Position numbers and translations under genes: made by a program. From Xiphias gladius (taxonomy: Eukaryota; Chordata; Actinopteri; Istiophoriformes; Xiphiidae), in NCBI RefSeq assembly GCF_016859285.1, contig NC_053413.1:23118001-23182000 (forward strand): 64,000 nt of DNA. The letters are read 5' to 3'. The notes beneath the pieces were generated by a model that saw only the letters and a program-made list of their open reading frames with translations, was not told where the DNA came from and searched no databases. Positions 20,701 through 59,662 of this stretch are shown here, in pieces; position 1 is the stretch's first letter; every line of letters begins with the position of its first letter.

Positions 20701-21240
20701 GGAAAAAAAAACAAACAATTATTGCGGGTTTAAGTCTTCACCCTCTTTCCTTCAGGACTCTGGAGTTTCTGATGCGTCATCTTGTCAGAGTGGCCTCATA
20801 TTCCTCAGAGACCAACATGCACGCCAGAAACCTGGCCATCGTCTGGGCCCCCAATCTGCTCAGGTGTGCAAATACCAGTGGCATAGATCAGTGTGTGTTG
20901 CGTGTGTGCTGTTGTCCATCTCTGCTGAAGTACCTTTGAGCAAACCACTGAACTTCTTTTTCCCCCCACCTTCTTTATCACTTTTATCCTTATTTCTTTT
21001 AATCATTTTCTTCACCTTTTTCTATCCTGTCACCTTCCCTTCCAACAGATAAGTCAGTTATAAACCACCCTATCAATCAATCAATAAATAATCAGTCAAT
21101 CAATCTGTATGTTTAGGTCAAAGGACATTGAGGCAACTGGGTTTAACGGTACAGCCGCCTTCATGGAGGTCCGGGTTCAGTCCATTGTAGTGGAGTTCAT
21201 CCTCACACATGTCCCTCAGCTGTTTCCTGAGCAAGGTTAG

Positions 21241-21321
<81 letters not shown>

Positions 21322-24300
21322 GCACACTCACTCACTCACACACACACGCCCACAGGCCGGACTACCCTTACCTCTGCCTCATCTCTTTCTTCTGCCGTAT
21401 TCAGGTGTAACAAGTGAGAGAAGGAAGTCCCTCCCCTCCCCAACAGCAGTGTCCGGTCAGGAAGAAGCATTTTTCAAGTCTGTTCCCACTCAGCCTGTAC
21501 CCAACTTTGGGAATATCAGTCCAGGAGACGGTCCTCTGCCCATAAGACCCTACCATGCTATCATTGAAGGCACAGACAAGTGAGTAGACCACCCATTTGT
21601 TGGGAGTGTCCTTACATTACATTCAAAATTGATGCTCATCATCTTACCATACAGGCAGAATGTTAGGCTCTTGTTAGGCCCAATGCGGGCGTAACGTATT
21701 CACGTTACAGTGAAGCATGCTGAAATTATGTCATGACATCAAGCAACTGCAGCTTAGAAAACGAGTTTTTCTGAGTTTCCTTGGTGGGGTTCAGGTTCAC
21801 CGCTGCATTCTTCATGTAAACCATTTCCCCGTGAATGTCTGTGTCTTGTTCACCTCAGGAGGAAAGGATCTCTAAAGGGCAGGAAGTGGATGTCCATATT
21901 CAACATCGGGGGACGATTCCACGACCCACGGCGAAGGCACAAACACTCATCTAAAGGTTCAACACCTTCTCATGAAAATTAGTAGTAGCGATAACTCCTA
22001 CCCTGGTTCCTTCTCTTTTTCCATGAATAATTTTGATTTGTATGGTAATTTTGATGACTTTCCTGTGTTTACTATTTTATTATGTTTTTTGGATTTAGTG
22101 CAAGCCCTCTTGTTTTATACATACAATTAACTGATGCAGAAAGGAAGATGAGCAGAGCAGGAAATTGATGATGATCTTGACCTATGATTTCTTATAGGTT
22201 TAAACTAAACGCATTGGTCTTTCAGGTAATGGTAAGGTTGAGGTTAAAAAATGTTGGGGGCTTTAATCAAAATCAGTCATTCGATTTAGAACCAAGTTGC
22301 TGGGGGCTGTTTGAGACAGGAGGTTTAAAGTTTCTGCGTAATCAGTTTTCACAGCTTCCCTCTCATCCAACTCTCATATAGATATATATATATCTTTAAA
22401 AAAAATGTTTTCTGTTTCAGAGAAAGAGAGGTCTGCTTTGAGACCAGCAAGAAGCATGGACTCCCTCAGCACCCCGTTATATCCAAATGAAGGTGCTGCT
22501 CTTCTCACACAAATCACATATGATTTAGTAATAAGAGGCTAAGGTTTGTCAGAAGGGTCAGTTCACCAAAAGTAAAAAAAGGCAAAAATTAAGTAAGTTA
22601 AAGTTCTCACTTATAGTACCTCCTGGTGGTGTTTGACCATGAAGAAGTTTCAATCGTATGTATGTTATGAGTTTAGGTTTTGAGATCTGCCTGTGAAACT
22701 TGGCGAGTGGGCTTTATTTGTGCTATTGAGATCATTAAAAAAATGAACTTTTGAAAAACTCAAAGGGACTTGTCTTTCCAAAAACAATGTCCCTGTTGCC
22801 CTGAATCCTCAGCAGAACATGCTATCGACAGTTTTCATAGGGAGTATATTTACGAGTAGAAAGTATAGCTCCAGGGAAACCTATTTACAGTGAAGCTTGT
22901 GGGTTATCCGGAGTAACTGGGACATTGAAAGACACATAAAATCTGCCTTTCTAGCTGAGTTTTTCCGGTGTAATTTTTTAATGTTTGAAACTCCACAAAC
23001 AACCGTTTCAGAGCCAAAAATGTCCAAACCTGCACACAAAAACTAAGAAATACCCATGGCTAGAAAACACTGACGACAAGTGGGAAAAAAGTACTTTTAC
23101 CGATTTGTGTGAACTAACCCATTTAAAATTTGAAAGATAAGATGGCTGAAACTGTTGTTTGTTAAGATACAGATTCATGGTTGTAGTTTTACTTAGACTG
23201 AAATATTAAACTGTGTAAAAAAGCAGAAGTTTGTGACCAAGGTCTTATCTGTCAATTATATTCCAGGTTCCAGATGTTCTGCCCAGCGCCCTCCCTCCAC
23301 CAACATTTCTCCCCAAGTCACTCGCTCCCCCCACACGGGCTCAGAAGTAGCAGTATCATCCGGTGCAATAGGTGGCAGCGAATATGCTGTAACATACCGC
23401 AGGGGAACAGGGTTAGTAAGTGGGGGTGCGGGGACCCAGGGCACCTACACTGCTCTTGACCCTGAGGGTTTAGGGGTCACAGGCAACGAGGTCGTCCTGT
23501 CCAGATCCCCGGGACTCTCCACCAAAGTGGGACGAAGAGCAGCCATGCACATCACAGGGCCCACCACGGTTACTGTGCCACTACATATCACCTCTAACCT
23601 GGCATTAGGGATGCTACAAGGGGGTGGGAGCGACAGGGTCATCCACCGTAGCAGGGAGAAAGATGGAAGGGACAGGGTGGAAGGTAAGGAGGAAAGAGAC
23701 AAGGTGGAGAGGAAGGAAAGCAAAGAGATGGAAATGGAAATGGTGGAGGAAGACAGAGAGGTTGATGAAGAGGAGAAAAACAGGGAAGAAGTTGTGGAAG
23801 TGGAAGCGAATACAGTGGTGGCAGGTGGCGCCAACAAGGAAAAGGATGAAGGAGCAAAAGAGGAGGAGAAGAAGGAAGAAGAAGTTAGAGATTTCAGATG
23901 GAAGCCAGAGCTGGGGATGGAAGGTCAAGGTCTGTCCAGAGAGCAAGAAACTAAAAGCCTCGACTCCAACACGTGTGATGAAGATGCTGCATATAATGAC
24001 CAATATGGAGACGACAACGATGAATACATGGGTAATTCCACCTATTTCATAAACTCGACCACCTTTACTTTAAGTATTAAGGCTAAAACTAATGACTGTT
24101 ATCAATATCATTTACTTTTTAAGCAGCTGGTTGATTTGGTCAGTCCACCACTTTGGTCCAAACGGAAATATGTTCGAAACTATCAGATGGATTGCCATAA
24201 AATCTGGAACAGATTTTCAAGGTCCCCGGAGCATGAGTCCATTAATTACTTTGGTGACCCCCTGACTTTTCCTCTAGCACCACCAAGAGGTTGACATTTA

Positions 24301-27300
24301 GCATAAAATATCTCAACAACTGTTGGATCTCTAAAGCTCTGGTTTTTCATTTATCACACAGTTACTTCTGCCCCTTTTCATTTGTACGTCATTATCCTCA
24401 TTTGTACAATCGTTGCATCTCTCTCTTATCTATGACAGCTGGCCTTCAGCCTCACCTTCGTGTGTGGCTGTTCAGGATAGCTATTTGCCTTTAGACGTGG
24501 TTGGACCAGAACTTCATACAAACTCGTTCTTTTCAAACATACTGTACCTCATGCTGTTGACTCTTAGTCTTGTTGCTTAATGAATGGCTCAAATCATTGA
24601 TCAGTTATCAAAATTGTTGCAGATTAATTTTCTATCAGTTGACAAGTCATTTATTCAACTAATCATTTCAGCAGTAAAAGATACAGTATAATTACAAACA
24701 CTGAATAACCATGATGAAAGGAAATACCATAAGCTTTCAATGCACAGGCCCAGTCTTTCTTTACCTAGAGCATTTCTATTAGAGAGGTACAAATGTTTAT
24801 CTTATATTTTCCTCCATATCTAATGTCCTTGTGAAATTACTGTGAACTGGTTTCTTTTAACCCCGCATTCTTGGAATTTGAGCTTATAAATCGTTACTAA
24901 CATTCGGTCGTCTCTGACCGTAGCGTATATTTCATCCGCAGAAATGAAAGGGGCGGAACAGGATGGTTTTCAGCCGACGGCGACTCAGCCTGGAGATGTC
25001 TGTGCGTCTGATGCTCCTGACATCCTCAACTCCACTGAAGTGGAAGGGGACAACCAGGAGCTGTTTGGCTACGTTCAAGATAACTTTGAATTCCTGGACC
25101 AGATGGACTGCAGCGCCCTGGACCATATGGACTGCAGCAGTTTCTATCAGGTTCGTGTTGTTTTATCTATATAGATGAGGTCTGAACAGCATTTGAAGGT
25201 GGCGCTTATTTCTTAACACATGATCCATAAGAGGTAGTAGGTTTGCAGAAGGGAAGAGTAAAACTTATTTGAGCATGTCCAACCGAGTTGCAGTTGTTAG
25301 ATACACTTTTGTTTCACTTTTTCAAATTTAAAAACTGTTTTTTCATTTAGATTACTGTTTAAATTGTCAGCGAGCCGGGAGTAAGAGCAGGATTTAAGAA
25401 CACACTGTACTTGTGAATACTTTCTGACAAGGCTTTCACGAAGAAAATTTTCCTTCCACTTCCTGTCTCTCTTTACCTCTCAGGCGAACGAGTTCTCCGT
25501 CGAACCTCCTGGTCACTCAGACGACGAGTATGAAATCATGATGCAAGCGCAGCCAGGCCCCGAAACACACACCCACAGCCAGACCGAGTTAAATCCACAC
25601 AGGCCGCTCAGCCTCGACCTAGCCACCCGACACACTAAGTCCCTCAGCTTGCCTTACATGACCTCACCCATCCACGGACCGGAGGAGTCCTGCTCTGAAG
25701 AGGATTATCTGGGGGACAACAGTGATGATAATTATTACAGTAGTGAGGAAGATCAGAACATGTTTCTCCAAAGCCTTCCCTCTGATTTCATTTTATGCGA
25801 TCATACTGGCTTTGAACTAGAGACTGATGGAGAAGACAGCTGCACCCCTGGTAGACTTCCTGTTGAGCAATCAAAGAGCGCTGAGGACGGAGAATTTGAG
25901 ACGTTACACTCTAAAGAACCATCCACTGGAAATCAGGAGCAGGGAGAAGCGGTAGACGAAGAAGATGAAGAAGGACCGGAGGGAAATCAGATAATAAAGA
26001 GAGAAGAGGAAGATTCACTTGATAAGCAAGGAGACCAACCAGAAAAACATATGCAAAGGTGAAACTGATTCCTGTTCTACATTTGTGTACATAACACATC
26101 CGTATCCAACAGTTAAAAATATATACGACAAACTTATCAGCTAAGTTCGTAACATTAACTTGGTTATACTGCAAGCTTTAATGAGTACGTATTTATGAAA
26201 TAATGCCCATTTTCTTCATTGTAATTACTATTTTTACATTAACAAACACACACTGAATTATTATTTAATCCCCTCAGCGCTATAGAGCGTTTTATCGTCT
26301 TTCCGCACACTGCTCCGGTACAGTATCGTGGCCTGCGACGTCACTGTTTGGTTCTCTCTCATCCAGCTGCAGCAGGCAGTTGTTTTCAGGAAAGCGCTGA
26401 TAAGCCCACTGCACACATGCCTGCTCAGCACCAAATGGCATTTTGTGGCTAAAAAGGCTTTTTTCTTACGAGTTGGTGGAAATCAAGCCGGAGCTAAAAG
26501 GAGACATTTGTCAGATGGCTAGGAACATGACTCCAAAGAAAGTCAGTTTAAAGCGAGATTATGTATTTATGTATTATGTATTTTCAAAGGAAAAATAACA
26601 CATTCCTTCCCATACAAATTATTATAATTTATAAACAATACAATGCAGCCTTGCTGAATTCCAAGCACTAAGGAGTTTTGCCTTATTTGGTCTGATAGAT
26701 GACTTTAAAACTCACTTCTTTACTTTGCTGCATTTATACTATGCATTAGCATTTACCATTGCAACCTGGGGCCACTGCTCAGAATAGCTTACACAGGCTC
26801 TCTGTTAAGCCACTATACATAGAGTTTTAAAATGACTGAGTTTAGCGCAGGCAGCAATTCTTGCTGCCAACCCCCTTTTTTCCATGGATCTGACCATAAG
26901 CAACACATATACCATATATTTTCACCTTGAGTATCAAATTTTTCTATAAACAAAACACAGAGTGGCTATTCTAAAGGTAAACTAGCAAGAAATATAAAAT
27001 AAGTAGAACTCATTTTGACACACATTACGTTTATCCCAACATAAAAAAGTATAAAACATTCTCCCCAATAAAATAAAATAAACAGTTTCCACAAAATCTC
27101 ATAATTGAAGCAAGCATGTTACGTAAATATCATGCAGGCAAATGTACTATTACAAGCCCCCAAATCTTCATCTGAAAAGCAGGATATCTTATTCTTCATG
27201 CCCACTTATATATATTTTAACTTTCTCTATTTGTCGTCCATATGCAGCATAACAGCAGAGGGAGATCTCAACATCATGGAAGATGTTCAAAGTGAAAAAG

Positions 27301-28670
27301 AAAGGCCTCCTACTTCAGAAGTGCCAACACACTGCTCTGTGGAGTTTCCACTTCCAAGCAATGAGAACACTGATGAACTCAGCACAATTGAGGCCGAGGA
27401 GGAAGTGGTTGATAATCCTCACAGTGATTATCCACCTTGTCTCACAGATTCTTGCGCACCACAGGAGATTGGTGACGTTCCATTAGAGGAGTCCAGGGAA
27501 CATCCCGAAACCTGTGTTGGAGAGGATACAAAAGAGAGACACAGTGATGAGGGAGAGGACACGAGGACACACAACGTGATCGAGGCAATATGTCAAGAAA
27601 TGGTTCTGGAAATAAAAGAAAGTGATGAGAACATGTTGGAAGATCCCATCGAAGAAGGCAAAGAGGGAATACCTGACAAAAAACATGAAGAAGAGATGCA
27701 GGAAGGCGGCAAAGAGCAGAATGGTGAAAATTGTAGCGGGGAAATTTGGGAGGAACGTGAGGATGTTGGATGCGAAGTGATAGTGGATAAGGGAAGTGAG
27801 CAGGCTGAGAGCGAGGGTGTTCCTGGGCAGGGAGATGTAGAAAAAGTTGGAGAGGAGCAAGAGCACAAAGAGAAGGTTTCAGGAGATAAAATAGTGGAAG
27901 TGGAGGAAGGAGGGACAAACGAGAAAGAAGTTAGAACAGAGGCAGAGGAGGAATCAGTGGAGACAACTGAAGAAAAGCTCACAGACCTAGAGACGCAGCA
28001 AGAGTTGGAGGAAAAAAAGACTTGTTTACCAGAGACAAGTGAACTAGAAGAAGCAATTCAAGGGAAGCATGTGGCCAACAAAGAAGCACTGCATCATGAC
28101 AGAGAAGAAGTGGTTTCAAAAGAGCCTGAGAAAGAGAGCAATGACAAAGAGAGGGCCCATGAGCAACTTAGAACCCTGCCAAGTGTAGATGAACAACTAA
28201 AAGAGGCCAGGTCTGATGTGAGAAAATCGAAGTGTGAGGTGACTGACAGTAGCCAAGGAGGAGTAGGCAGGAAGCTGATTATCTCCAAACATCCGAAAGT
28301 TTACCAAGCCAGAGCGGTGCCGGTTGTGCCTCCGAAGCCTCAGCACTGCAAAATCACCGCCCTGACCCTCCGACAGCAGCAGCAGCAGAGAGAGAGAAGA
28401 GATGCAGACGGAGGCAGGGAGAAAGCGCCAAGAGTCCCTAGGGAACAGGACAGAGTTGGTGCCGCAGGGCAGGGAAAAGATGGAGGAGAGAGAGAGAGGG
28501 AGAGGAGGAGGGATGGGGATGAAGGTGCCATGAGGGAAACAAGTAGAAACAGTCCCCTCAGCATGTGTTTCGACGAGGCTGTTGCCATAGCAACCATGAG
28601 GCGAGAAAAAGAGAAAGAGTGCGAGAAGGAGAAAGAAAGGCAGAGGGACTGGGGAAGTGAAGTGCAGTGA
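17784..28670 (+). CDS. arhgap30: Rho GTPase-activating protein 30
   Basis: Thirteen coding exons join in frame to 1320 codons: 17784-17871, 19200-19302, 19464-19608, 19854-19936, 20756-20863, 21117-21235, 21405-21579, 21859-21956, 22421-22492, 23267-24031, 24942-25150, 25484-26058 and 27248-28670. The RhoGAP domain covers roughly residues 15-215. It has GIYRLSG with the arginine finger (Arg52), then KDVYLQDIHCVSSLCK, NMHARNLAIVWAPNLLR and FNGTAAFMEV. The order, the SMDSLS motif, HITSNLALG, EFSVEPP and the C-terminal VPVVPPKPQ (SH3-type) match ARHGAP30 as I recall it, better than ARHGAP31 or 32. It is expected to switch off Rac1/RhoA-type GTPases and affect adhesion and actin. The tail is long and very Glu-rich (exons 10 and 13). 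Human ARHGAP30 is about 1100 aa, so this tail is longer. The intron after exon 2 starts with GC. Confidence 0.94.
18470..18965 (+). repeat. Dispersed 'gctaacatgctaac' fish repeat in arhgap30 intron 1
   Basis: The signature phrases are agcatgctaacatgctcac, ttgctaattagcacta, ggtcgttaaccaaag, tggacaaactgaaattttga and catgctgagggggacgtg. I recognise them as a widespread percomorph intronic repeat. An inverted fragment of the same family is in intron 10 of this gene. Confidence 0.7.
20345..20580 (+). repeat. Dispersed repeat in arhgap30 intron 4 (copy A)
   Basis: It shares cccactg-gcac-, ctgttcagcacca-atgg and agaaacacgactccaaa with 26380-26545 in intron 12 of the same gene. It is therefore a two-copy (locally) dispersed element of unknown class. 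Confidence 0.55.
21242..21348. repeat. (CA)n microsatellite next to the exon 6 donor of arhgap30
   Basis: About 38 CA units, then a mixed ACTC/ACAC tail. It starts six bases after the donor of exon 6 (CAAG|gttaga). Confidence 0.95.
22555..23120. mobile_element. Non-autonomous DNA transposon-like element in arhgap30 intron 9
   Basis: The left end reads gggtcagttcac and the right end gtgaactaaccc, a near-perfect inverted repeat about 565 bp apart. No ORF is present between them. The size and ends fit a MITE. The superfamily was not determined. Confidence 0.55.
24130..24300 (+). repeat. Repeat fragment in arhgap30 intron 10 ('gctaacatgctaac' family)
   Basis: Phrases such as ccaccactttggtccaaa, atggattgccataaaatctgg, accccctgacttttcctc and caccaagaggttgacattt belong to the fish repeat at 18470. 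The exon 10 reading frame runs on through the donor into this repeat and stops at 24292-24294. Confidence 0.6.
24585..24680 (-). repeat. Short 'gggctgcaac'-family fragment, arhgap30 intron 10
   Basis: It reads ttatcaaaattgttgcagat followed by taattttctatcagttgac and caactaatcatttcagcag, the end of the same dispersed family. Confidence 0.5.
26380..26545 (+). repeat. Dispersed repeat in arhgap30 intron 12 (copy B)
   Basis: The second copy of the element at 20345. It contains gctcagcaccaaatggca, agatggctaggaacatg and actccaaag. Confidence 0.5.
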
Positions 28671-30304: not shown

Positions 30305-33300
30305 ATGTCTTTCGCCCCCCCCCTCGGTACGCAGATCGCAGCCGTCATGGACGCGCTGGCGAAAGCCGCGGTCGCCGACATAACGAAGCTGGTGGAGGAC
30401 GGGACGGTGGCTCTGCGCCTGGAGATGTGTCGGAAGGACGTCGAGATTCAGGAGCTCAGACGAGGCGTGAAGCGGATGGAGGCCGAGCTCCGCGAAGCGC
30501 GAGGGGCAGCCGTGACCCGGGCGACGCGGGACAAGCAGGGGCGAGCAGCAGCCGGGAGCCGGGTCGCCCCGAAAGGTGAGGAGCACCGTTTGACAGGCCA
30601 GCTCCCACATCTGGGACTGGATAGAACTTTCTCACCAAACTTCGTTTAAAATGTCTTAGGTTACTCAGCGTTCCTTATCTGGCAGAACGTAAGTAGAGAT
30701 CCTTTACGATTTTTTGTGGTCTCCTGTTGAATTCGGCTTAAAGATGGTTGCATCATTTCGATACAGTCCATACTATCAGACTATAAGTACAAATCTATCT
30801 ATTTATTGCCGAAACACAAAGTATTAAGTTCTGGATAATAATGGGAAGAGAAGCAAGAAACCACGGCATTCGGAAGCAGTAATCAGAATGGTTAGATTGA
30901 AGTGATTAAAGTGAATACTGGGGCTGCATCCAACCACTGTTTTCGTTAACGATTAATGTGCCAATTATCTTCTCATTAAATCATTTGATTAATAAAACGT
31001 CAGACAATTATGGAAAATTGGCCCATCACGGTTTCCTAAAGTCCAAGATAACATCATTCAATATAGCAGTGCTAAACACAAAGATGTGCCGTTTTCTATC
31101 ACAAAAGACAAATACATGTCCTGAATCCACAAAACTGAAAAGGAGGAACTGGGGAATATTTGACATTACTTGGAAAATCCCTGAAATGATTAATTGACTG
31201 TCAAAATGGTTGTAAACCAGTTTCTCGTTGATCTACGTGTCAATGAACTGATTGGCTCAATGATGAAATCTGTTTAATAAAGAAAACTTCTTCGCTACTA
31301 CTACTTCGCAAAGCTGCGAACCTTTCCGCTCACCTCGTAAGGATAAGTCGGAGGTTAAAAACGCGCGTACTAAGTATTTCTCTGACCTTACGGCTAAACA
31401 TAAACATGACTCGGTGACTTTTATGCAGACGACTCCCAGATCTATTTCTCATTTTACTCAACAACATAACACAACTGGGGCAAAATACAGTCCTGTCTCA
31501 CAGATGATAAAAGCCGGTCCTCTCGAAACCTTCTTCAGTCAAACGCATATAAATCAGAAGCTACTGTCATTGGTCCAGACTCTTCCAGTGAGCACATTTC
31601 CGCCCACTTAGGTTCTCTGTCTCCCCTGCATTAAAAACCCAGTGCAGATATCTAGGTGTTACCGTCATCGCAGTCGTCATTCAAATACCAGTAGAAGTTG
31701 TGCGTTGTTCAATCTCGCTTCTTTTACCTTTGCAACATTTAAAAAATTCGATCCTTTTTTTTTTTTTTATCCGAAAAGAACCTGAAAACCGTCATCCGTG
31801 CTTTTACAACATCCCAGTTAGATTACCGCAACGCGTCGCATTCCTGCCGTAGCAAATACAACCTATCCAAGGTTCATCTGGTCTAGAATCTGCAGCAAGA
31901 CTACTCACTAGATCCAATAAAAGACTCTGCATAATGCCAATTTTAGCATAACAACACTGTCACCTGAATTTGAGAATTGATCTAATGATTACTCTTTACG
32001 TACTACGTATCTGCGACAGCTAATTCCTTACGATCCTGAATGCAGCTTCACATCCTCCGGCAGATGTGTGTTAGCAATTCCTAGGTCGAGGCCAAAAACC
32101 AGAATAGACCGAGGCGTTGGAGTCAGGGCCCCTTGACTCTGGAACGACTGGCAGGAGGAGATCAGGCAGGCTAGCTCTGTTTCCTCTTTTAAAACCTCTG
32201 TTAATTATGTTCTAACCTCATTTAGTTATTATTTCTGGATTATTACCACTTTTATTAACATTATTTGGTCATTTTTCTTTTTGCTTCATGTCTTTGTGAA
32301 GCACTTTGTAACTTGTTTTACTTGCTTATAAATTAAAGTTATTATTATTATTATCATTGGTTTTTTTTCAGCTCTAAAAATGACTCTTTCAGCCGTAAAA
32401 AACATACTAACTTTTTTAGTAGATCAACTGATTCAACTGACTCATCATTTTGGTTGTAGATTTTAGGGGTATGAGAACATGAGATTAACCATAAAAGCAA
32501 TTACGAAAGTAGAAAGTTTTTTTTGTTTTTTTTTGTTTTTCTTTACTTTCCAGTAAACGGGGTAAGTAAATAGCCATGGGGTTGTACTGTTCCAGTTAAT
32601 AACTGTGTTCTTGCTTTGTTGACTTGCATTTGCATTTGTGGAGTTAAAAGCCAAATTCATGTTTACCTGCAATTTCTTTTGTCTTTATAATTGCAGATGA
32701 AAAAGAAGATCAGCAAACGTGTGCAGTGTATCTGGAACCAAAGACCGCTGATTCACCCTGCGAGCCTCGACGCGGGACAGACGAGAGCCACGACATGAGG
32801 CCAACTGTGAAACATGAGCCAGCAGATGAACTTGCTGTCCAGGAGACAACAGACAACGCTGCGACAGCAGCCACCGATGTTTGCTCTGAGGCGGGAGAGC
32901 GAGATGACCCAATCTGGCCTCCTGCTCCTTGTAGCGTGTTTGAGAAAGGCTCTGTTGCAGCGCAGCAGCACACACAGATTTTACCCTCGTGCGCTGAGCC
33001 TTTTTCTGCTCGCAGAGATACGGAAAATTCCCAAAACTCGTCGTCGACTGCAACGGAGGGAATCGCAGATGATTCCTTAAGTGTGCCGATAAAAGTAGAG
33101 GTAGAGATTCGACCCATGTGCACGGGAAGTACAGCTTCGGAGTCTGTTCATAACGCACCATTTAGACATGTTTCGTGCCCTGCAGTCAGTCAGGACCAGT
33201 GCTTGCAGCCCGCTTTGCCACAGGCCGGGCCGTCACTAGCCCTGCCTCACGCGCAGAGGTCCACAGCGGACACAGAAGATCACATCCTCAGTAGAAACAA

Positions 33301-33685
33301 CCTGAGAGCAAAACGGCCCATGAATGTGTGGCGGACAAATCAGAAACTCTTCATCTGCTCTGTGTGCAACAAGGGTTTCCCCCGCCTGTCTCAGCTGGAG
33401 GAGCACAAGGCCACCCACCAACCCTTCAAACCTTTTAGGTGCCTCGAATGCGGGAAGTCTTTCACCCAGAAGACCCGGCTGAAGACGCACCAAAGTGTTC
33501 ACACGGGAGAGAAGCCGTTCAGTTGTAAAATCTGCGGCAAGATGTTTTCGAGGCAAGACAACTGCCTGAGACACGAACGGTTTCACAGCGGCCTGAAGCC
33601 GTACAGCTGTGGGCAGTGTGGTAAAAGCTTCACGGTGCTAGGCAACCTCAAAATACATCAAGAGATTCACCTGCAAGGCAGATAG
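30305..33685 (+). CDS. C2H2 zinc-finger protein ZNF-B (two exons, four fingers)
   Basis: Exon 1 is 30305-30575 and exon 2 is 32697-33685. The join is phase 1 and gives 419 aa. Exon 1 begins MSFAPPLGTQIAAVMDALAK and has KAAVADITKLVEDG followed by a heptad-like coiled coil, the same module as in ZNF-C and ZNF-D. Exon 2 has a long acidic spacer with TVKHEP and IKVEVE (psi-K-x-E, SUMO-type). Four fingers follow, beginning FICSVCNKGF, FRCLECGKSF, FSCKICGKMF and YSCGQCGKSF. Only the second and third are joined by the classic HTGEKPF linker. The stop comes 4 residues after the last finger. It is likely a nuclear sequence-specific DNA-binding protein of a teleost-type ZNF cluster. I do not recognise a named orthologue. 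The first exon sits in a GC-rich promoter-like block (about 30150-30570). Confidence 0.88.
30918..31270 (+). repeat. Dispersed 'gggctgcaac' element, copy 3, in ZNF-B intron
   Basis: It opens ggggctgcatccaaccac, then cgttaacgattaatgtgcc, and ends with taattgactgtcaaaatggt. Order and phrases match the other copies. Confidence 0.6.
31280..32360 (+). mobile_element. Degenerate LINE 3' end (L2/Maui-like) in ZNF-B intron
   Basis: Reverse-transcriptase remnants occur in order on the plus strand. FYADDSQIYF (the YADD catalytic box) is near 31421. Then come a piece reading like 'YLGVTVI', VIRAFTTSQLDYRNAS near 31795 and LRPKTRIDRGVGVRAP near 32090. The 3' end has the typical gtgaagcactttgtaacttg followed by an ATT microsatellite at about 32335. 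Many frameshifts and stops make it inactive. I assign the clade from the tail only. Confidence 0.75.
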
Positions 33686-37272: not shown

Positions 37273-40200
37273 ATGGTGAGCAGCGTTGCTCTGCGGGCTC
37301 AGATCGCCTCAGTCATCGATGCCCTGTCCAAAGCAGCCGTGGCAGAGATCTCCAAAGTTGTAGAGGACGGTATGGTGGTGCTGCGGCTGGAAATGTGTCA
37401 GCGCGAAAACGAGATCAAGAAGCTGAAGAGCAACATCGAGGTCCTTCACACCGAGCTGAGAGCAGCGCGGGGCAGAGTGACCCTGCGACCCAACGACCAC
37501 GGGAGAGATGGTAAGGCGGACCTGATAGACCACCTTTTCCCCTTGAAACAGCACCACTTCCCCCTCGGTACACTCACACCTAGTTTTTGAAGGTACTTGG
37601 CAGGTAGGTAGTTGGAGAACTTGCCTCGGGTCCTCTGTGGATTTAGCCTGTGTCAGTGTCTTCTGTCTCTTCATGTGATCCCAGACTGACTCCTTGACGT
37701 TGAGAACGAGGCTCTGTGGGGGGGGCCAGACCGCCTTTTGCAGGACTCCTTGTTCTCCTTGTCTCTGAAGACCGTTCTCGGTGAATCTGACTGTGTGTTT
37801 GGACGCGTCGACGTGCTGCAGAATGAATGTGGGATCGATCGGGCGCCTCCCTGGTCGGTGTTGCGGGACGGATCAGACTCTAAACATCTAAAGATCTAAA
37901 GTGAAGATTTTGCACAGTACTGTAGGAGCCACTAACTGTTACACTGATGTAGGATATATGACGACAAGGTTTCCTAGGGATGAAAATGCACAAACCTCGA
38001 CAGCGCCTCTGACCTCGGCGTTTGCCTTTGAGGGCGGTACCTCACCAACCTCATCACTCCACCATCTCTGCAAGGCTCTCTGTCTGTCTGGAAGGCGTAA
38101 CAAGTGCATCATGGAGCAGGACCTGCACGCTGGAACTTGATCGCAGTCGTAAACATTGCCATATAGGTGGTTGAATGTCAGCAGGACTCAACTGGCTAAA
38201 GATGTCTGGCAGTGAGCTGTACATGAGACAGGGCTCCAAATATGCCATATCTGCGTCTACAAAGAGGAACAGCAATCTTTAGTAAAAACTAATAGGAGTA
38301 TGGGGCATATTTACATAGCTTTTATAGGATGTTGACCAATACTGCTTCATTGGGTTAAGTCCTCTTCATAAAGGGATTATGTTATTTTATCTACTCTGTG
38401 TCTTGCCTACCTCCGTCCTCTGCTCTGTCTGTTCCTCCTTGTTCTTCCTCCGTTGGGTGTAGCTAAGAATTAGATGGCCTACGCAGGAAGAGCAAAAAGC
38501 CTCTAGGTGATTCTCCCCTCTTCTGTGTCTCTGCAACCATAAACAGTTGTTTTCGTCAGACGTTTTCCTTGATAAATGACTTAGCAAGTAATTGCTTACA
38601 CAAATGATTGTCAAATTTCTGTTGATCGACTCGCCTATTATTTGACTGATTCTTCCTGCACTAAATGCATGCCGACCCGTCAACAAACACCAGCCCCCAA
38701 AGTAATTTACGGATGAATTGTTGATAATAGCAGAAAGTCCGGGTTTTCCGGTGCTACCCTCATGACACCACGTTGCTTTAATTTAGTCTGAAAGGAGAGT
38801 GTCTTTCTCACCTAGCACAGCAGTCGTTTCATGTTTTTGGGAAATTGTTATTTTACAGTTTTGTAGTTTTCACCGAAACCAAGTTTCAGACACCGGAACG
38901 GTGTGAGACACTTACCGTATACAACTGAGGATGACTAAAGGTGTGCTGTCAGTGCGTTTCAGTCTCTTCATATACCCCGAGTTGTTTTTGGGATTGGGGG
39001 CGTGGTCATTACAATAATTTTCTCCTATTTCCAAATGTGTCGGAGTGAAGTTACCAACCGTTTTTGATGCACACATTTAACTATGACATCAAAAAATTAG
39101 AAGCCAAAACACTGTTCCACAACTTTATCATTGTCTTTCCACAGGCAGTCAGTGTGGCACCGGTGACGAGAGGACCTTGCTTGACAGTGTCCACGCCGGC
39201 AAGGACAACAGCAGCCTGTCCATACCTGAGGTCCAGGTTAAACCTGAACCTGTGGAACAGGGAAGGGGAGAGACCAGAGGGCTACCCGATCAGCTGGGAG
39301 AAGACCTGGCTCTATACGAAGGCAATAGTGGGCAGTGGAGGTCCACGACGCAAAATGAGACCGGACGCAACAACTCAGATTATTTACATTTGGGGCAGAA
39401 CTCTCTGTCGTGTCTCCCTGAATCTTCCCTGGACACCGGACTGGCTGTGCCCTGCAGCAGCGCCGGCGGGTTTCAGCACAGCCCGTTCAGCCGTGGGCTG
39501 CTGGGTTACAGTCAGTACCGCAACTTGTACAACACGGTACGGAGGAGGACGGTGAAGAGGTTAATGTTTAAGAAGGGCTTTATCTGTCCATATTGCGGAA
39601 AGTGTTTTGAGCGTGCCGGGCACCTCGAGAGACACAAAAGGATCCATACTGGTGAGAAACCATATCGTTGTGAGATATGTGGGAGACGCTTCAATCAGAA
39701 ATGCAGCCTCAAGGAGCACATGAAGATTCATAGAAGATGTAAGTAAAATACTTTGGATCTTTAAACACGAAGGAATAAACTTTGAGGGGAAAATGAACTG
39801 ATTTTTCTTTCTGTCAGCAACTACCTTTAGCGCTGCCTTTCAGCAAAACACTTTGTCTTCTGAAGCTCATTACAAAGAAAAACTGAAGACTGTTATACTT
39901 GGCAGTTTTCAAGCGACGGTTTGATTAAATGTACATCAAAGCAGGGTGTTGTGGCAAGAGTCTGTGAACTCAGGCAATATTCTCTGGATAGATGTCTCAA
40001 AATACATTTGAAAATGAAGACATTCTGTCCTCTGTTTTCCTGTTCAGGGAGATCAGGACCTTCGGCTGTTGAGCTGTTGGGGATTTAGTGTCTCCCTCAA
40101 GGAATCTTCAGAGGGGCAGGATTAGGATGGCTCACAGGGTTGTGGGGCATCAAATCTGGATGCCCCGAAGCCCCCGTTGAGGACCTTGAATAAAGTTTAG

Positions 40201-43200
40201 AATGGTTTAGATTTGTGGAAAAATTGATGTGGCACATTGGGTAGCTAGTTTTATTTCCTGGCGTGTTATTTTTGTCCTCCGTCTTGGAGTCTTGGCTCAA
40301 TTCACAGTTGGAAGTCTCTGGCTGTGACATTCCTCTGTCACAGTAAGCGGAGAAATAAGCAGAGAATGTGGTTTGGGCGAGACGACAGTAAATGGGAGAT
40401 GGCGGCCTAAAAGAGCCTCGCTGACCGGCGGACTCGCCTGGCTGACTTCTAAGAACACCGCTCTTTTATAGCCTCTCTGCTTCCCAGGGCCAGACTTCAA
40501 CCGGCTATGTCAGACATCTATTGGATATTAAGTACCGGGGCCTCATTTCAGTTCGTGTCCATGAAATGCAACGGTGAAACAAATTGCCCTCAAGACCTTC
40601 AGGTGCTTTCCCGCTACTCTTTAGTTCTGCTAATCTTTGCATAACAATGAGATACAAAAAGTGACAGCTGTGCTTAAGCGTTGCAGAGCCCCCAGTGGAC
40701 CAAAAAACGCATCCTGTCATGTATGCAGGCAGATGTAACAAAATACATCTTCTCAGGATTCCCCCCAGGAAGCTGTTGGTAAACCACCTGGATTCTGATG
40801 CATCTCTTTCTGTGTTCAGTGTAGTTAGCAGATGATGGCCTGAGCAGCTGTCACGCTCAGTAAATGTGGTAAATGCATTTGCTGTGTGAAATGGCACCTC
40901 TGTTCTTCTTCCCTAAAGGTTAATGTTTTAATTCATTAAACTGCACATTTTTAAATGATTTTGGAGGATTTGGCCTTTAAGGCTGTCAGTTTGTCAAAAT
41001 ATCAGCCCATTTAGCCTAATCCTAGACTAACATTGTAAATTAGATTTTTTTTTGTTTATTAATGGTGCCTCTGCTGCCACACTTGGGTGACAAGCTATCA
41101 GGAGACTTCAGATTTATTTTTGTAACAACAACACCGTGAGGTACTTGCATTTTTAAGTGGCGGCGAACAGCCTCACCATTATCCACAAATGTTCCATCTG
41201 TCGAGTTGAATCCAAAAATTCTTCCGCACATTTCCTCTCAGATGCTTTGGTGTCGTGGTTATTCTTTCAGCACGGTTCGGTAGTTTCCAGTTTTGCATTA
41301 ACAAAGAGATCTTCAGTGGCCTCATGTGCTGGGGGCTGTAGAGCTTACAGTGGATCAGAATGACAGTGCATTTTACAACTGCCCACTGCTGGAGCCCAGG
41401 ACATGAGCTGCTGTTCTTACGGGCAGCAAATTTGGAATTTGGGCAGATAAATGCAGATTGAATATTTCATTGCTTTTCCCAAGTTTGAAGGGTGATTTGA
41501 ATTTTTAATCAAAACTGACTGTCCTAGTGGTCTTTACTTCAGGCAAGGTGCCCTGTCTCTGGTATAAAACACTATGGAAAACCTATGGCATTGAATCAGT
41601 TTTCGGTGGACACGGTTTTTACGCATCAGGCGTTTGTGCGGTTGGACCAGGAGAGACCGACGTGTCGGCATGTTTACTCTGAGAGCAACCTTTGCATGAC
41701 CTGCACGCTGTATGTGGCCACAACGAATGTTTAAAAGTTTAAGGGTTAATGGTAAAAAGCTTTTGACTGCTTAGATGTATGTGGAAAAAAAATGCTTGTG
41801 ATGACTTCTTCCTACTTAAACAGGTATTCAGCCCAGACCAGTTGAAGTCCAAGTAGGCGAACAGAAGCCAATTCCTGAGGTGAATCCGTGCACTGACACT
41901 CATCGGCCTGAGGAAGAGAGCCAGACGAATGGTGAGGAGGGCCTACCAAAGAATGACGACATCCTCCCAGCACCTGTACAGGTCAAATCTGAGCCTGCAG
42001 AGGAGGATATAACACAACCACTGTTTCATGGAGAAAATGGGCAGACAAGGGAGGGAGTAGACAACCTCAGTGAGAACTTCACAGGATTTGAGAGAGACAG
42101 CCAGCAGTGGATATCCAGATTACAAGGACAAAACAACACAGAGATGAGCAATAGAGAATATCTCAGCAGCCCGGCACAGAATATCACATCCTTCCCTGGG
42201 ATAGCTCAGTTGCTCCCTGCACCAGTCGAAGCTTCTTGTAGCAACTTCCCCTTTCCAGGGAAACCATATGGGGAGCTGAAAAACAGCATGATCTCCCAAA
42301 CACCCTATGGATCGCTAGACACACTCCTGATATCAAGTGAAGCGGGCTTACATGGTATGGCGGAGGCCTCACTGAATCACCACCGACAGAGGAGAAGCAG
42401 GTCTTTTCAGGTGATCAAACCAAAGAAATGCTTCGTCTGCTCGTACTGTGGCAAGGTCTTCGAGCGCGCCGGCCACCTAGAAAGACATTTACGAATTCAC
42501 ACTGGGGAGAAGCCGTACGGCTGCCATATCTGCGGGAGGTGCTTCAATCAGAAAAGTAGCCTCAAGGGCCACATGAAGACACACAGAAATGGTAAGTGAC
42601 AAACGGTTATTTCCAGACAAGACATTGACTAGGGATGGAACTAATGATTATTTTCATTATTGATGAATCTGTCCGTTATTTTCTTGATTAACTGATAAAT
42701 CGTTTGGTTGATAAAGCGCCAGAGTAGAGTTAACATCACATCACATGCCCAAAGCCCAAGTTGACATATTGTCTGACCAACAGTCCAAAACACAAAATGT
42801 TTAGATTAATATAGTAGAAGACCAAGAAAACCAGCAGATATTCACACGTGAGAAACTGGAACCAGTGAATTTTTTAGCTTTTTTGTTTAAAAATAAATAA
42901 ATAAATAAATAAATAAAAATCTTTTTTTTTTTTTAACACCACCATTCACTAGATCTATGTCTTGCACATAAGCACAACTCTTTTATACTGTGTAAAAGCA
43001 CAAAAAAAGATATTTTGTTAACACTGTTTGCTCATTTAATTCTGTTGCCTTTTTTTCTGAAAAGGGGAGAACACAGATGTGCTGGAGGCACATCAACTGA
43101 TGTTTACAATGCCTGATAATCAACCGCTGGAGAACCTGGCAGAGCCTAAGATCGGACTGGCGGCTTTTGAGGAACAGTTGCCGGGCAGCGAGGCAGTCGG

Positions 43201-43786
43201 TGAGCAAACGGTAATGGTGAAGGTGGAGCCAAATGGGGATTTTCGGACTCTAGGTCAGGCAGGGCCTGGTAATGGCACAGGAGCACCAGACAAAAGTCAG
43301 CTGTGGACATCTGGGATAGAGACGAGTGGTGACACAGCAGAACAAACTATCTGTGTGCTTTCACATGATGTCAAGTACCACATCAGTCCTGCTGCTGGAG
43401 CAGCCTATGAGCAGCAGGGATACACATCACCAATCAAGGATCTGCCTTTTCTAGATGACAAAGAAAAGGAAGAAATGATGCACGGTGATCAGTATTCGGT
43501 GATAGGAATGCAGTCGAGAAGCTCTGATATGACTCGCACATCGGAGCTACAAGACGAACATATTACGCACGAGGTGGCTGTGAACAACTACATCGCAGTG
43601 AGTGACAGGACTCAGGGGGGAACTGCCTTTGATTTGAATATGAGCGGTTCAAGCAAACACAAGGACAACTGTGGCAGTGATGCCACCGGACAAAATTGCT
43701 TTATATGCTCAAGTTGCGGGCAAAGCTTTGATAGTTTCAGTTTATTTCAGCGGCACCAGTGTAAAAACATCACTGAGCAATCCTAA
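37273..43786 (+). CDS. C2H2 zinc-finger protein ZNF-C with repeated finger cassettes (four exons)
   Basis: The exons are 37273-37510, 39145-39738, 41824-42591 and 43065-43786. All junctions are phase 1 and the sum is 773 aa. Exon 1 opens [20 protein letters not shown] and has [14 protein letters not shown] plus a coiled coil. Exons 2 and 3 are homologous: spacer with VQVKPEP or VQVKSEP, then two fingers beginning [19 protein letters not shown] and [12 protein letters not shown] (exon 2), or [19 protein letters not shown] and [12 protein letters not shown] (exon 3). Exon 4 repeats the spacer (VMVKVEP, QLWTS) but ends in one odd finger with C-x2-C and only H-x-C. Exons 2 and 3 end at GTAAGT donors; reading on gives TAA or TGA within two to three codons, so shorter ORFs ending at 39746 and 42599 also exist. 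A named orthologue was not recognised. The joined model is an inference from phase and homology; three separate genes is the alternative, but only one first exon is present. Confidence 0.8.
42630..42935 (+). repeat. Dispersed 'gggctgcaac' element, copy 4, in ZNF-C intron 3, with an (AAAT)n run
   Basis: It has gggatggaactaatgatt, ttttcattattgatgaat and aactgataaatcgtttgg, then a short (aaat)n at about 42889-42919. Confidence 0.7.
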
Positions 43787-47848: not shown

Positions 47849-50800
47849 ATGGCGACGTGCATTCCCTTTCAGACGCAGTTATCCTCAATAATGGAGGTTT
47901 TGGTGAAAGCAGCGGTGGCAGAGATATCCAAACTAGTCGATGAAAAATGTGCGTTCTTGCATCTAGAAATATCCCGAAAGCAGAGCGAGATAGAGATGCT
48001 GAAAAGGAAACTGTTAATGATGGAGAACAAAAATGCGCAGCTGCACCGCGGGTTCGGTAAGATGCTCGTCTGCCTCGGTCGTGTTCATAATTTACGACTT
48101 CATCAACGTGTGTTGTGCACATTAACGTAGAAAATATCAAAAACAAGACGCCTAATCATTTTATAAAAACAGCAGCACTGTAGGAATGCTGTGCATCTGA
48201 TATAAATGAATGTACGTTGTTATTAAAATTGTTGCTATTTCCTCCTTTTAACCTGATGTTAAATTTCACTTTAGTCCACCTCTTTTTTAAATGTATTTTT
48301 TATTTTTTTTTTATCTTTTCTGCACCCAGAAAACTACATGGACCGAGGAACTGATGTGGGGAGTAATTGTCCGCACCCCACAGGAGATGTTAAAGTCTGT
48401 GTGTTTTTCATAACTCCATAACTTTGATTTATGCCAGTGATTTTACTCAGTTACGTACGTGTAGACCCACCCGAGTCAAGGCTGGATTACCGACCGGGCG
48501 AGGCAGGCAACTGCCCCGGGGGTCCAGAGAACCCCAGGTTCGGTGGGGCAGTTGGTTTGTGGTGATTTGTTTATCTGTTTGGCACTGTGCGATGACGTAT
48601 TTAGGATTATGCACACAGTATCAAATGACTTAATAAAGGGGGCCCTTGCTTTATTCAATGCAAATAAGGTTGACGACGTATATATCCAACCCAACCCATC
48701 CAACCTCTGTACAAACACAGCATAAAAAAGAAATTCCCCAAGAATTTGTTGATGCAACTTTTTGATCTTGTCAGACATTTGCTCGTTGAAGACCTGGTGT
48801 AGCATGTGGAAAGCCTCTCTTTTTTTTTAACTTTGGGTCTTGAGACCCTGTGTATTAAAATCCAGGTTGAAGGTCTTCATTATTGCAGCTGACACCCTAT
48901 AAATGAGGTTGTGTTCAGTCGAACGCCAACAAGGCAAAACTGGGGTCGTGTAATTTTCCGAGAATAACTGTACCCGATTCGCAAGGAGAGGTAGGAATTG
49001 GGGTTAATGGGAGTTAACTCATTTTTGCTCCAGGGCCCCAAGTCAGGTTAAACAGACCATGATATGAATCCTGGTTGTAAACGTAGCTTCTAAACAAACT
49101 TCTATTGAAACCCAGCAAGGCCGTCTGATTTGGCCCCCTTAGTGATGGCGGTGGTCATGAACATGGATTAAAAGCTGCCCTCTTTCTTTTTATACTAACG
49201 CTTGATCAAAGGACTCTGTGCAGTACTAATGGTGTCATTTGTATTGACAAATCCACAGAGAAGCACCACCCCACTCTGCGGTTCCTCTTACCGCTGCCGA
49301 GGGTTTGTGTGTTGCAGCTCATTGTTTTAGTTTTATTGCTGCAGCCTCACCGATTTTGTTCAGTCTCGCCACTCTGGTCAGTGTCATTTCCAGCGGCGTT
49401 TTTTTTTTTTTTCCCCCCATCAAAAAAGCTGAAAAACCAACTGTACACTAATTCCCCAGCCAAATGTGTTAAAAGGCACTTCGTAAGGTGGTAATATGTC
49501 CCCGTTGTGTTTACAGCTTGTGTTGCCCCCAAGTGGGCAAAAAATGTAATATTGCAGTTTGGGGTTTAATCCATCCTCTTTCGATTTAGTTCCGTGAGAC
49601 TGAAGAAGCCACTGTTTCCTTCACAATCAAAGAAGAGAGTCCAGATGAACCACTGTGGATCAGTGATGCCGCTGGACCGATTGGTGAGTTAAAAAAGTGG
49701 ATTTTGTGCAAGAATTCCATTTTAAAAAGTCATCTCTTTTTGGTCAAATTTAACTACACGGCCCCCTCCGAACCCCCCCCCCCCACACACACACCCGCTA
49801 CCTGTAGGTTCTGCTGTACATTACCCTAATCCAGGCAATGCTCCAGAAAGCCAGCAGCTTGAAGAGGACCGTCAGTTAAACCCTTCAGAGGTCGCCAGGC
49901 TAAAAACATCCGAGTTTGGTGACTTGTACAACTCTGGTCAACATACAGGAGACATCGGCGGCCTTCACTTCACTGTCAAGACAGAGAAGGAGGAGGACCG
50001 ATCGGGATTCAGTCAGGATGGGTGCCAGCACGGCGCGGGGAAGCAGACTCAACTAGCTGTGGACTTTTCCATGGATGAAAGAGAGAATCAACTCTGGTCA
50101 TCCATCATTGAGGGTAATGACATTGATGCTGGTTTTCCTGACTTTTCTAGTGTGGTGGAGGAGTATTCCAACACATTCCCAGACCATTCAGATACACATG
50201 TGGTTTCTAACACTAGCAAGTTGACAAGTGTCCAGCAGTCGTCCTCTCAGAGGCCGTGCAATGGGATCTACAATAGTGAGTATCCAAAGGATGCTCCGCA
50301 GTCGTCCAATTTTCAGACCAGGCCTCAGAGCGCTCTTTCACAGCAAGACGGGCAGAAAGAACAAATTTACTCGCAGAGAAACGCGCCGCATGTCGCACAC
50401 CCGAGGCAGCCAGATGAACACCCCGAGAGGGACGCCGCAGCTGGGGATAGACCAGTCGTAACTCACTCGCACAACGCTTTTACGCCCAGCAGCTACCACA
50501 CTCACGCCCCCGGCAGACCTTTTCCTGGCGGGGCGCGAGGCTACGTTTGCTTGCAGTGCGGGAAGACGTTCGGCCGTCTGCACCAGTTCAAGCTGCACCA
50601 GCAAAGCCACAAGAGAAAGCGAGCATTCTGGTGCACGGTGTGCGGGAAGAGCTTTCAGTGTTCATCCCACCTCAGCATACACCACCGGACACACACGGGC
50701 GAGAAGCCCTACGGATGTGGGCAGTGCGGGAAGAGGTTCACGCAGCAGAGCAGCCTGAGGGTCCACCAGCGCACTCACAGCGGGGAACGGCCCTACAGCT

Positions 50801-50874
50801 GCTCACAGTGTGGGAAAACCTTCATCCTGATGCACCATCTCAAACGGCATAGAATTATTCACACATACAGCTGA
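47849..50874 (+). CDS. C2H2 zinc-finger protein ZNF-D (four exons, four fingers)
   Basis: The exons are 47849-48056, 48330-48394, 49590-49683 and 49808-50874. The phases (1, 0, 1) fit and give 477 aa. Exon 1 starts MATCIPFQTQLSSIMEVLVK, has [13 protein letters not shown] and then a coiled coil. Exon 2 encodes GENYMDRGTDVG; its donor (aaa|gtctgt) is weak, so this small exon is the least sure part. Exon 3 gives FTIKEESPDEPLWISD. Exon 4 has FTVKTEKEED (SUMO-type), QLWSSIIEG and four fingers beginning YVCLQCGKTF, FWCTVCGKSF, YGCGQCGKRF and YSCSQCGKTF. The linkers between fingers 2-3 and 3-4 are HTGEKPY and HSGERPY. The stop comes 3 residues after the last finger. It is expected to be a nuclear DNA-binding protein. 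Spacer motifs place it closest to ZNF-A. Confidence 0.86.
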
Positions 50875-56386: not shown

Positions 56387-58923
56387 AGAAAGGGAGCACG
56401 CAATGTGGTCTGGTCCTCACTTCTTCAAAGGGCTGTTTAAAGGCTGAGGCTTTGAGGTTTTCTGGATAGGGTAAGGGAAAGATTAGGCTTGTGGGGCGAG
56501 GGAATGCATCAGAGTGTGTCGGAGAGATTTAAAAACTCACCGACAGCGTCGGCGCCGAGCCTGTGCAGCAGGCGACACTCAGCGATGGTTTCGAAGGAGG
56601 GTCCTCCGAGGACACAGTACACTCCCTCTCGCAGGAAGTCGTCGTAGCCCAGCTCTGCTGCCACGTCGTGCGCCAGCTGACGCAGCTCGCGGCTATAGGC
56701 GTCAGACATGCAGGGGAAGCGAACGCCGAACCTGCAGGGAGGAGGACGGTGTGGCTCGAGTTCATCCCTGAAATTCTCGCACATGACTCGAGCAACATTA
56801 AAGCAAACCACAAAGCTTCACAACACTACACACAGGTCCACCTGTTTTTTTCTGATGCAGGGGGGCTGACAGTACATTTGAACACTGCATGGGGAAATTT
56901 GTCATCTCAGCTCAGACCATCGAAGAGATCAGCAGGTCGCTCTTGCAGTCCGTGGACGGAAGACAACAGAGTACAAGTCTCCACTTTCCTGTCATGTAAT
57001 GCCTCTAAATTGCGGCCTTTCGAGGACAACAGGCGCTCGGGTTGCAACCGACGTCAGATGCCTCGAGGCTGAGTTGTGGCAGTTTTGTGTAGGAGACTGC
57101 AGGAATGCGCATATTGTACGAGATGAAATATGATGTGGGAGGGAAAACCCGGTACAGCTGAGTCATTTGCACAATGACTGAGTGGCAAGTGTTTGCTTGA
57201 AATTTCCAGAAAAATAAGACCTCTGACGGAAATTACCTATTGAGCTGATGACAAATCTTTTTAATGTCAATTTTGAAGTCTTAAGGCAGAATATATAAAT
57301 CATTTAAAAATTATGCACAAATTCTGGTGAACCAGCTCTTTCATGTGCTAAAACACTACTTGAAAGACTGTGACTTTCCACTGTGACAAAAAAAAATTAT
57401 GCAACTGAGGAGGAAATACTAGTTGTTTTTGGCATTAAAAGCTAAAAAAATTTAAATGTAAAATATCAACCATAAGCAGTTTCAAAACAAAACAATGTTA
57501 ACTGTATCTGCCCTGATGAAAACTGTACTCTACCCCTCCCTCTCCTCCACATACCTGTCATCGTTGGGTCCAGCCAGAGGGTTGATTCCAGCAAAACCAG
57601 GCATGTTGATGTGGTCCTTGATGATCATGACGTCTCCCACTTTGTATTCCTCGTTGAGGCCTCCGGCTGCGTTCGTCAGAATCACCGTCTCCACGCCCAT
57701 CAGCTTGAAGACACGCATGGGCAGCGTGATCTGGAGAGCACAAGGTGACGTAAATTCAATCATTTAGCAGGGAAAAATATAAGACTCGCTCGCAGGCCAG
57801 GTGCAAAAGCCTCACTTAAAACAGAGACTGCATAAGGAGAGAGGAGAATTGAGAAACGCGAAGTGTGTCCCCTTCGAAAACAAAAGGTTTTTGGAGGGAA
57901 CATGTCTGTTTCTTAATCATGTCAAGTGGCTGAAATAAGCAGAGCTTTAAATAAATCCACTGATATCAAACACTTGAGGCACAAAGGTATTTCCACGTTT
58001 ACTGCCTGAGGTCGGTTTCAGCTGTTTTCACTGAAACAGAAGGAAAAGGTAAGACACCTGTTCCTTCTGTTTCATCGAGGTGGGAAACACACAAGTGGCT
58101 TCAGAGAGTCTTCAAGACCCCTTCACATTTTATTGTGTTGTAAAAAAAACGAAAAAAAAAACACCATATAGAAACAAAAGTAATGGCAAAGCTTAGTAAC
58201 GCTAAGATTAAAGGGGGAAAATATTGATATAGTTTATATGTATGATATATAGGGAACTGAGCGTTTAAATTACCCTTTAAAGCTAATGCAGACTTAAAGA
58301 CTTAAGCTGTTGCTCACACTACAAGGACATTTTTTGTCCCAGACCCGCCCTGACATGCACGGGGTTGCGCACACTACACAACTAAACCTCAGTTGGGATG
58401 TTGGGATTAAAGGATTATTCCGGCTGCAGAGATCCGTGACTGAAGCGAACAAGTGCGATCTTCAGCAAAATCCTGCAAGAGGTCAGCGTGTGCGTTTACT
58501 GTTACTCTTGCTGCAATGCTGCTCATCTGCCGACCGCGCTTCTTAACGGGCGTATCTTGAAATCGCTTGAGCTGGACAACGGGTTGTCCGGTTCAGGAGC
58601 CAGGCCCGATTTTGTGCAGACTCGGGGGTGTTTGTCTCAGATCGCAAAAAAAAAAAAAAAAAACAGATCCAGGTCGGACAATTCACGGAAAAGTGTAGAC
58701 CTGTTGTCGGTGCTAGGCCTTAACTCTACTCCACTCACCTTCTGGATGGGGTAGCCCTCGTACAGGTGGAACCTGCCCTGCATGCAAACACACGGCTTCC
58801 CTTTTAGTGTTCCAAACACCAGCTGGCCGGCATGACCATGCACTGCAACACACACACACACACACTCCCGCTGTTAGACACCCAGTGCAAACTAGAGCTC
58901 ACGAACATGCACGCACACGCACA

Positions 58924-59008
<85 letters not shown>

Positions 59009-59662
59009 GCACGCACACAGAGATTAACAGCTGCGTTTTCGCAGGCAGCGGCAGGCTGTGCATACCTGTGCTCTTGGGGAAGTTGGGAATGTCACTGTAT
59101 TTGAAGACCTGCGGGTCCTTGAGCATCTCAGCCAGCCCCCCCAGACCTGAACCGCACACGATTCCCACACGTGGCTGCACTTGGGTGTTGGACAGCAGCC
59201 AGTCGGCCGTGGCCTGGCACTCCTGATAGTTGTCACTGAGAGAGCGTCAGAAAAACAAAGGTCGGTCACGTGTGTACTAAACTCTTATGTCAGCAAAGTT
59301 TATTTTCTGTCATTTTTTTTTAAACACGCCACAAGGCCTGGCTTGCAGGCTGCGTTTCAGTTCATCCCAAAGGCATGGGTTGTGGCTGAGGTATTATGTT
59401 CTTTTTCTAATTTTTACTGTTTTAAAATAAATTAATAATATCATTATCTCCATTCGTTAAAAACCAATGCTTTGTCAACGTATACTAAACTGGACCTGTT
59501 GACGAGACAGTATTCATTTAAAAGAGACATAAAGCTCTTTTTAAGTTTAGGCATTAGACAACGTAAACACAACGATGTCCTCGGTTCCCCTCTCTGCATT
59601 CACGGAAATGCCACATTCAATAACCAGGAAATGACCAGGAATATCTGCTTTGACTACACACA

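Follow-up and report, generated by a model that had tools for sequence, protein, structure and literature searches.

A putative four-exon C2H2 zinc-finger gene of Xiphias gladius with a duplicated spacer-plus-finger-pair exon

C2H2 genes usually grow by the addition of fingers within one exon. The locus described here, called ZNF-C, raises the question of whether a gene of this class has grown by the copying of whole exons together with their spacers, how many of its exons are copies, and whether these exons belong to one gene and are all retained on splicing. ZNF-C lies on the plus strand of a 64,000-nucleotide stretch of Xiphias gladius DNA (hereafter the window, the positions of which are used throughout). 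The original prediction held that exons 2, 3 and 4 are three repeated cassettes, each with a spacer and fingers, and that exons 2 and 3 could be skipped without a frameshift.

The gene model comprises four exons on the plus strand. Exon 1 (37273..37510, 238 bases) begins with ATG and contributes 79 codons and one further base before a phase-1 donor, GTAAGG. Exon 2 (39145..39738, 594 bases) and exon 3 (41824..42591, 768 bases) are in phase 1 at both ends, and each encodes a spacer followed by two C2H2 fingers, the spacer holding VQVKPEP and QWRS in exon 2 and VQVKSEP and QQWIS in exon 3. The terminal exon 4 (43065..43786, 722 bases with the stop) has VMVKVEP and QLWTS in its spacer and a single degenerate finger. 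All three introns have GT-AG borders and all three are in phase 1, and in exons 2 and 3 the donor GTAAGT occupies a matching place, just 3' of the second finger. The predicted exon coordinates and phase-1 ends proved exact on re-reading, and the motifs named for exons 2, 3 and 4 (VKPE and QWRS, VKSE and QQWIS, VKVE and QLWTS, respectively) were all found there. When splice sites were scored with general splice-site base frequencies, the three donors ranked 3, 8 and 1 among the 520 GTs between about 36.5 and 45.5 kb, and the three acceptors ranked 7, 14 and 16 among the 585 AGs of the same region. Joined in order, the four exons give an open frame of 773 residues and a stop.

Judged by their sequences, exons 2 and 3 arose as copies of one exon. 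A two-sequence BLASTP comparison of the two gave an E value of 4e-37 and took in residues 19-196 of the 197 encoded by exon 2, with exon 3 having a longer start. The relationship extends beyond the fingers: the two spacers, compared without them, reached an alignment score of 99, while shuffled spacers averaged 36.9 (z 9.2) and none of 1000 shuffles came up to that score. This was the highest of the 15 pairs formed by the six body-exon spacers of the window, which include those of three related genes, ZNF-A, ZNF-B and ZNF-D; the next-highest pairs, ZNF-A with ZNF-B (z 3.1) and exon 3 with ZNF-A (z 3.0), were scored with the spacer starts of ZNF-A, ZNF-B and ZNF-D untrimmed to their acceptors. 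Spacer residues paired by MAFFT were identical at 39 of 130 positions, and the finger blocks of exons 2 and 3 at 44 of 56. In the comparison that also included the neighbours, 42 of 54 finger residues agreed between exons 2 and 3, as against at most 24 (ZNF-A), 25 (ZNF-B) and 29 (ZNF-D) of 54. Exons 2 and 3 thus share homology over most of their length and the same phases at both ends, as is required of a tandem exon duplication.

By its codons the duplication is an old one. Codon positions 1, 2 and 3 of the two finger blocks were identical at 46, 51 and 24 of 56 codons, respectively. Where the two blocks have the same residue (Met and Trp left out), the same codon was used in 19 of 43 cases, close to the 18.0 that codon usage predicts (P 0.43), and the NG86 method gave a dN of 0.13 and an undefined dS. 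Silent sites have therefore been randomised while the finger protein was retained, which means an old duplication after which both finger pairs were conserved. Because exons 2 and 3 both carry a donor after the second finger, we infer that the ancestral exon was already internal when it was copied. Introns 1, 2 and 3 and the 3' flank, compared with each other on the plus strand, yielded nothing significant (lowest E 0.12).

Both finger pairs follow the classical C2H2 pattern (C-X2-C-X12-H-X3-5-H, with TGEKP links). At helix positions -1, 2, 3 and 6, which we take to be the finger-reading positions, the pair of exon 2 (39579..39737, plus strand) has R-G-H-R and Q-C-S-E and that of exon 3 (42432..42590, plus strand) has R-G-H-R and Q-S-S-G, so that the first fingers are identical in these letters and the second fingers differ at two of the four. 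That both copies have kept one and the same first-finger reading helix for so long suggests selection for the reading of a repeated site. Among solved structures, the finger pair of exon 3 found general C2H2 relatives, the best of them a ZNF568 chain, and a scan of viral contigs with exon 3 returned one pattern match and no confirmed relative.

A psi-K-x-E site alone is unremarkable, appearing in shuffled spacers of exons 2, 3 and 4 at rates of 5, 13 and 11% (10,929 of 100,000 for exon 4). A psi-K-x-E site followed by a Trp box, which for exon 4 was sought as Q-(x)-W-x-S, appeared in 21, 36 and 29 of 100,000 shuffles, respectively; the strict form of the motif pattern was defined after all three exons had been viewed, and the loose form was taken from the motif of the original prediction and of the gene family. 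The V-x-V-K-x-E-P sites are similar to the SUMO motif of synergy control, of which a proline beside psi-K-x-E is a trait, and they are candidate sites of SUMO attachment.

Exon 4 fits the proposed scheme of three repeated cassettes less well. Its spacer aligned with those of exons 2 and 3 at z -0.8 and 1.6, scores reached by 795 and 81 of 1000 shuffles, respectively. A canonical finger (C-X2-C-X12-H-X3-5-[HC]) had no match in exon 4, and the exon scored 16.1 bits against the Pfam zf-C2H2 profile, below the cut-off of 25.2. The degenerate finger nevertheless aligned by two-sequence BLASTP with the first finger of exon 3 at 9 of 22 residues (E 3e-05) and with the first finger of exon 2 at 8 of 20 (E 7e-04), and across the window the first finger of exon 3 was its best match (E 0.004), followed by ZNF-B (E 0.057). 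These alignments, of a kind that zinc fingers in general may give, favour a common origin a little. By codon usage exon 4 is coding: its in-frame score, calculated with stops ignored, was 0.131, whereas the highest value among 39 overlapping non-coding stretches was -0.047; with exons 2 and 3 out of the training set the values were 0.134 and -0.077.

A protein alignment of the three exons, the check by which the proposed duplication was to be judged, thus placed exons 2 and 3 far above chance and the exon 4 spacer at the level of shuffles. The evidence that whole exons were duplicated together with their spacers is good for exons 2 and 3 (spacer z 9.2, fingers 44 of 56) and weak for exon 4, in which the predicted order of motifs held while the spacer similarity and the canonical finger did not. 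The view of exon 4 as a complete third copy finds no support in its spacer alignment, which is at chance; its motif order and degenerate finger would still allow that view. The best description of exon 4 is a worn, terminal body exon of the family, and it is assigned to ZNF-C by its splice signal and codon usage, together with its motif order and degenerate finger.

The other members of the family in the window indicate which features ZNF-C may have inherited. ZNF-B (30305-30575 and about 32697-33685) and ZNF-D (47849-48056 and about 49835-50874, the start of this body exon being approximate) each combine a first exon homologous to that of ZNF-C with a single body exon of four fingers that ends in a stop, and candidate phase-1 donors of their first exons lie at 30576 and 48057, respectively. 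ZNF-A is represented by a body exon on the minus strand (10615-11508), for which the window yielded no known type of first exon. A stop at 10612-10614 (minus strand) falls inside a finger linker of ZNF-A, and a further finger can be read after it in the same frame; ZNF-A may be a truncated gene or a pseudogene. Both spacer motifs occur in the single body exon of ZNF-A (VKHE, QLWSS) and of ZNF-D (VKTE, QLWSS). In ZNF-B, the segment 32807-33100 has two psi-K-x-E sites (VKHE, IKVE) within one spacer and a divergent Trp site, so the number of sites also varies without exon duplication.

ZNF-C itself belongs with these genes, as its exon 1 has a phase-1 donor and is homologous to the first exons of ZNF-B (beginning at 30305; 51% over 72 amino acids) and ZNF-D (beginning at 47849; 40% over 52 amino acids). 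Exons 2 and 3 show the family order of psi-K-x-E, Trp box and fingers, and in exon 4 the motifs come with a degenerate finger. Given the phase-1 donors of ZNF-B and ZNF-D and the motifs of ZNF-A and ZNF-D, the phase and spacer of ZNF-C look inherited, and the novelty of ZNF-C, by comparison with these sequences, is that its finger-pair body exon is internal and copied. Open stretches are also present nearby at 19405-28670, resembling a large RhoGAP gene (ARHGAP32-like), and at 56509-59246 on the minus strand, resembling a purine nucleoside phosphorylase gene.

A clustered family could also have given rise to ZNF-C by the fusion of tandem genes that subsequently lost their first exons, with no exon duplication within one gene. 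The family is tandem here, with first-exon copies at 30305, 37273 and 47849, and the same kind of motifs recurs across the body exons. However, introns 2 and 3 retain no remnant of a known first exon: neither of the two known first exons gave a match there with E values up to 10. In exons 2 and 3 alike, the finger pair is followed by an internal donor, whereas ZNF-B and ZNF-D run through four fingers to a stop, and no neighbour in the window comes nearly as close to either exon as the two do to each other. The lack of a first-exon match, the lack of a common stretch among the introns, and the GTAAGT donors at a matching place together favour the copying of an internal exon, and we regard fusion as decidedly unlikely.

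The same search bears on whether exons 3 and 4 could belong to a gene of their own, next to ZNF-C, that starts with a different kind of first exon. The introns concerned, of 2085 and 473 bases, were screened for the known first-exon type only, which leaves room for such an exon; against this, the phase-1 acceptor of exon 3 fits the family junction and the well-scoring donor of exon 2 needs a partner, and a separate gene seems very improbable. Since no known first exon was found in introns 2 and 3, one four-exon gene is favoured. We consider it probable that ZNF-C is one C2H2 transcription-factor gene with four exons, belonging to a clustered family, with exons 2 and 3 duplicated and skipping a minor event.

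The protein encoded by exon 1 was modelled as one long helix covering residues 3-70, with a mean pLDDT of 88.2 and a pTM of 0.52 from three aligned sequences. A Foldseek comparison of this model with the PDB gave no matches at E up to 10, and the two matches to Pfam were both below their cut-offs (15.7 of 26.3 bits and 14.7 of 27 bits). On the basis of the model, exon 1 may form a coiled-coil dimer.

The products of a single four-exon gene could vary at their ends or in their internal exons. If the donor of exon 2 or exon 3 were left unused, the cassette would become a last exon, and an intronic poly(A) signal would lead to shorter proteins. Both donors do read through to a stop two codons on (HRRCK and HRNGK before the stop). 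An AATAAA lies at 39774, 36 bases past exon 2, with another at 40189 and a run of them at 42892-42912 in intron 3, whereas the first AATAAA after the stop of exon 4 comes only at 46328; the nearest signal past that stop is an ATTAAA at 43878. The two AATAAA in the 2085 bases of intron 2, however, are about the window average (57 on the plus strand in 64,000 bases), the cluster in intron 3 arises from a simple AAAT repeat, and a stop is built into any phase-1 donor of the form GTAAGTRA. Shorter products that end in a cassette are possible but not indicated, and alternative ends are a rather improbable account of the locus.

Skipping of internal exons is permitted by the frame. All four combinations that retain exons 1 and 4 are open to one common stop, with 774 codons including the stop for exons 1-2-3-4, 518 for 1-2-4, 576 for 1-3-4 and 320 for 1-4, so that exons 2 and 3 (594 and 768 bases) can be removed without a frameshift, as had been predicted. 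If skipping were regulated, exon 2, exon 3 or both would be omitted according to tissue, so that a single promoter would yield proteins with between 0 and 2 finger pairs and between 1 and 3 psi-K-x-E sites. The open combinations and the phase-1 ends of both exons would allow this, but the symmetry follows from the copying of a phase-1 exon in a family with a phase-1 first junction and is hence no evidence of skipping, and the splice sites of exons 2 and 3 score well. The piccolo b (pclob) gene of teleosts, which has 8 to 16 copies of an exon that combines a variable spacer with zinc-finger parts, can be read in both directions (PMC3484663). In zebrafish every repeated exon is reported to be spliced in; RT-PCR detected the skipping of one amplified exon, with a product much less abundant, and RNA-seq showed few skipping products in heads and some in other tissues (PMC3484663). 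By this precedent inclusion would be the default in ZNF-C, with skipping still possible, and regulated skipping is unlikely. More doubtful still is the fuller form, in which the tissue-wise inclusion or skipping of an exon combining a SUMO switch, a Trp box and a finger pair would set the equipment of a coiled-coil dimer at 0 to 2 pairs and 1 to 3 sites from one promoter.

Our preferred reading of ZNF-C as one gene with a duplicated internal exon would begin with an ancestor that had an internal two-finger body exon and a terminal exon like exon 4, followed by the duplication of the single internal exon. The main product would be the full 773-amino-acid protein, with the N-terminal helix serving dimerisation. 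Its two finger pairs, about 200 residues apart and with an identical first-finger reading helix, could bind two similar short sites at once, SUMO on the spacers at the three synergy-control-like psi-K-x-E-P sites could tune repression, and exon skipping would be a minor event. Growth by the copying of a whole spacer-plus-finger-pair exon would make ZNF-C a test case for a one-step change in DNA contacts and SUMO sites, and for whether both copies of the cassette are needed.

Several known systems share part of this arrangement. In the SALL and HIVEP/ZAS proteins, C2H2 finger pairs lie far apart along one protein, as in ZNF-C; to our knowledge, unlike those of ZNF-C, these pairs are not on successive duplicated symmetrical exons. 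In the Drosophila genes Broad-Complex, lola and fruitless, finger pairs are on separate exons, as in ZNF-C, but these finger exons are alternative ends, whereas the cassettes of ZNF-C occupy internal positions and can be spliced together one after the other. A literature search covering titles and the openings of abstracts found no C2H2 gene with serially duplicated spacer-plus-finger-pair exons, the absence of such a gene being unproven. The FiNZ-ZNF genes of cyprinid fishes form a large family in which one short N-terminal exon, encoding a 28-amino-acid glutamate-enriched FiNZ domain, is spliced to one exon with the finger array (PMC10547256). ZNF-C has a comparable short N-terminal exon spliced to a finger exon and differs in a first exon predicted to form a long helix and in the spread of its fingers over three exons. 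The synergy-control motif of steroid receptors likewise places psi-K-x-E in the spacer of a transcription factor (PMC3373386).

The nearest precedent found for ZNF-C is piccolo b (PMC3484663). There a single exon with zinc-finger parts and a long variable spacer was repeated within one teleost gene, and the copies have conserved ends and very unequal sizes and were apparently gained and lost as single exons, which are features shared with ZNF-C (PMC3484663). The two genes differ in that piccolo b encodes a synaptic protein with CxxC-type fingers in 8 to 16 copies (PMC3484663), whereas ZNF-C has C2H2 pairs, likely encodes a transcription factor, and has two clear copies.
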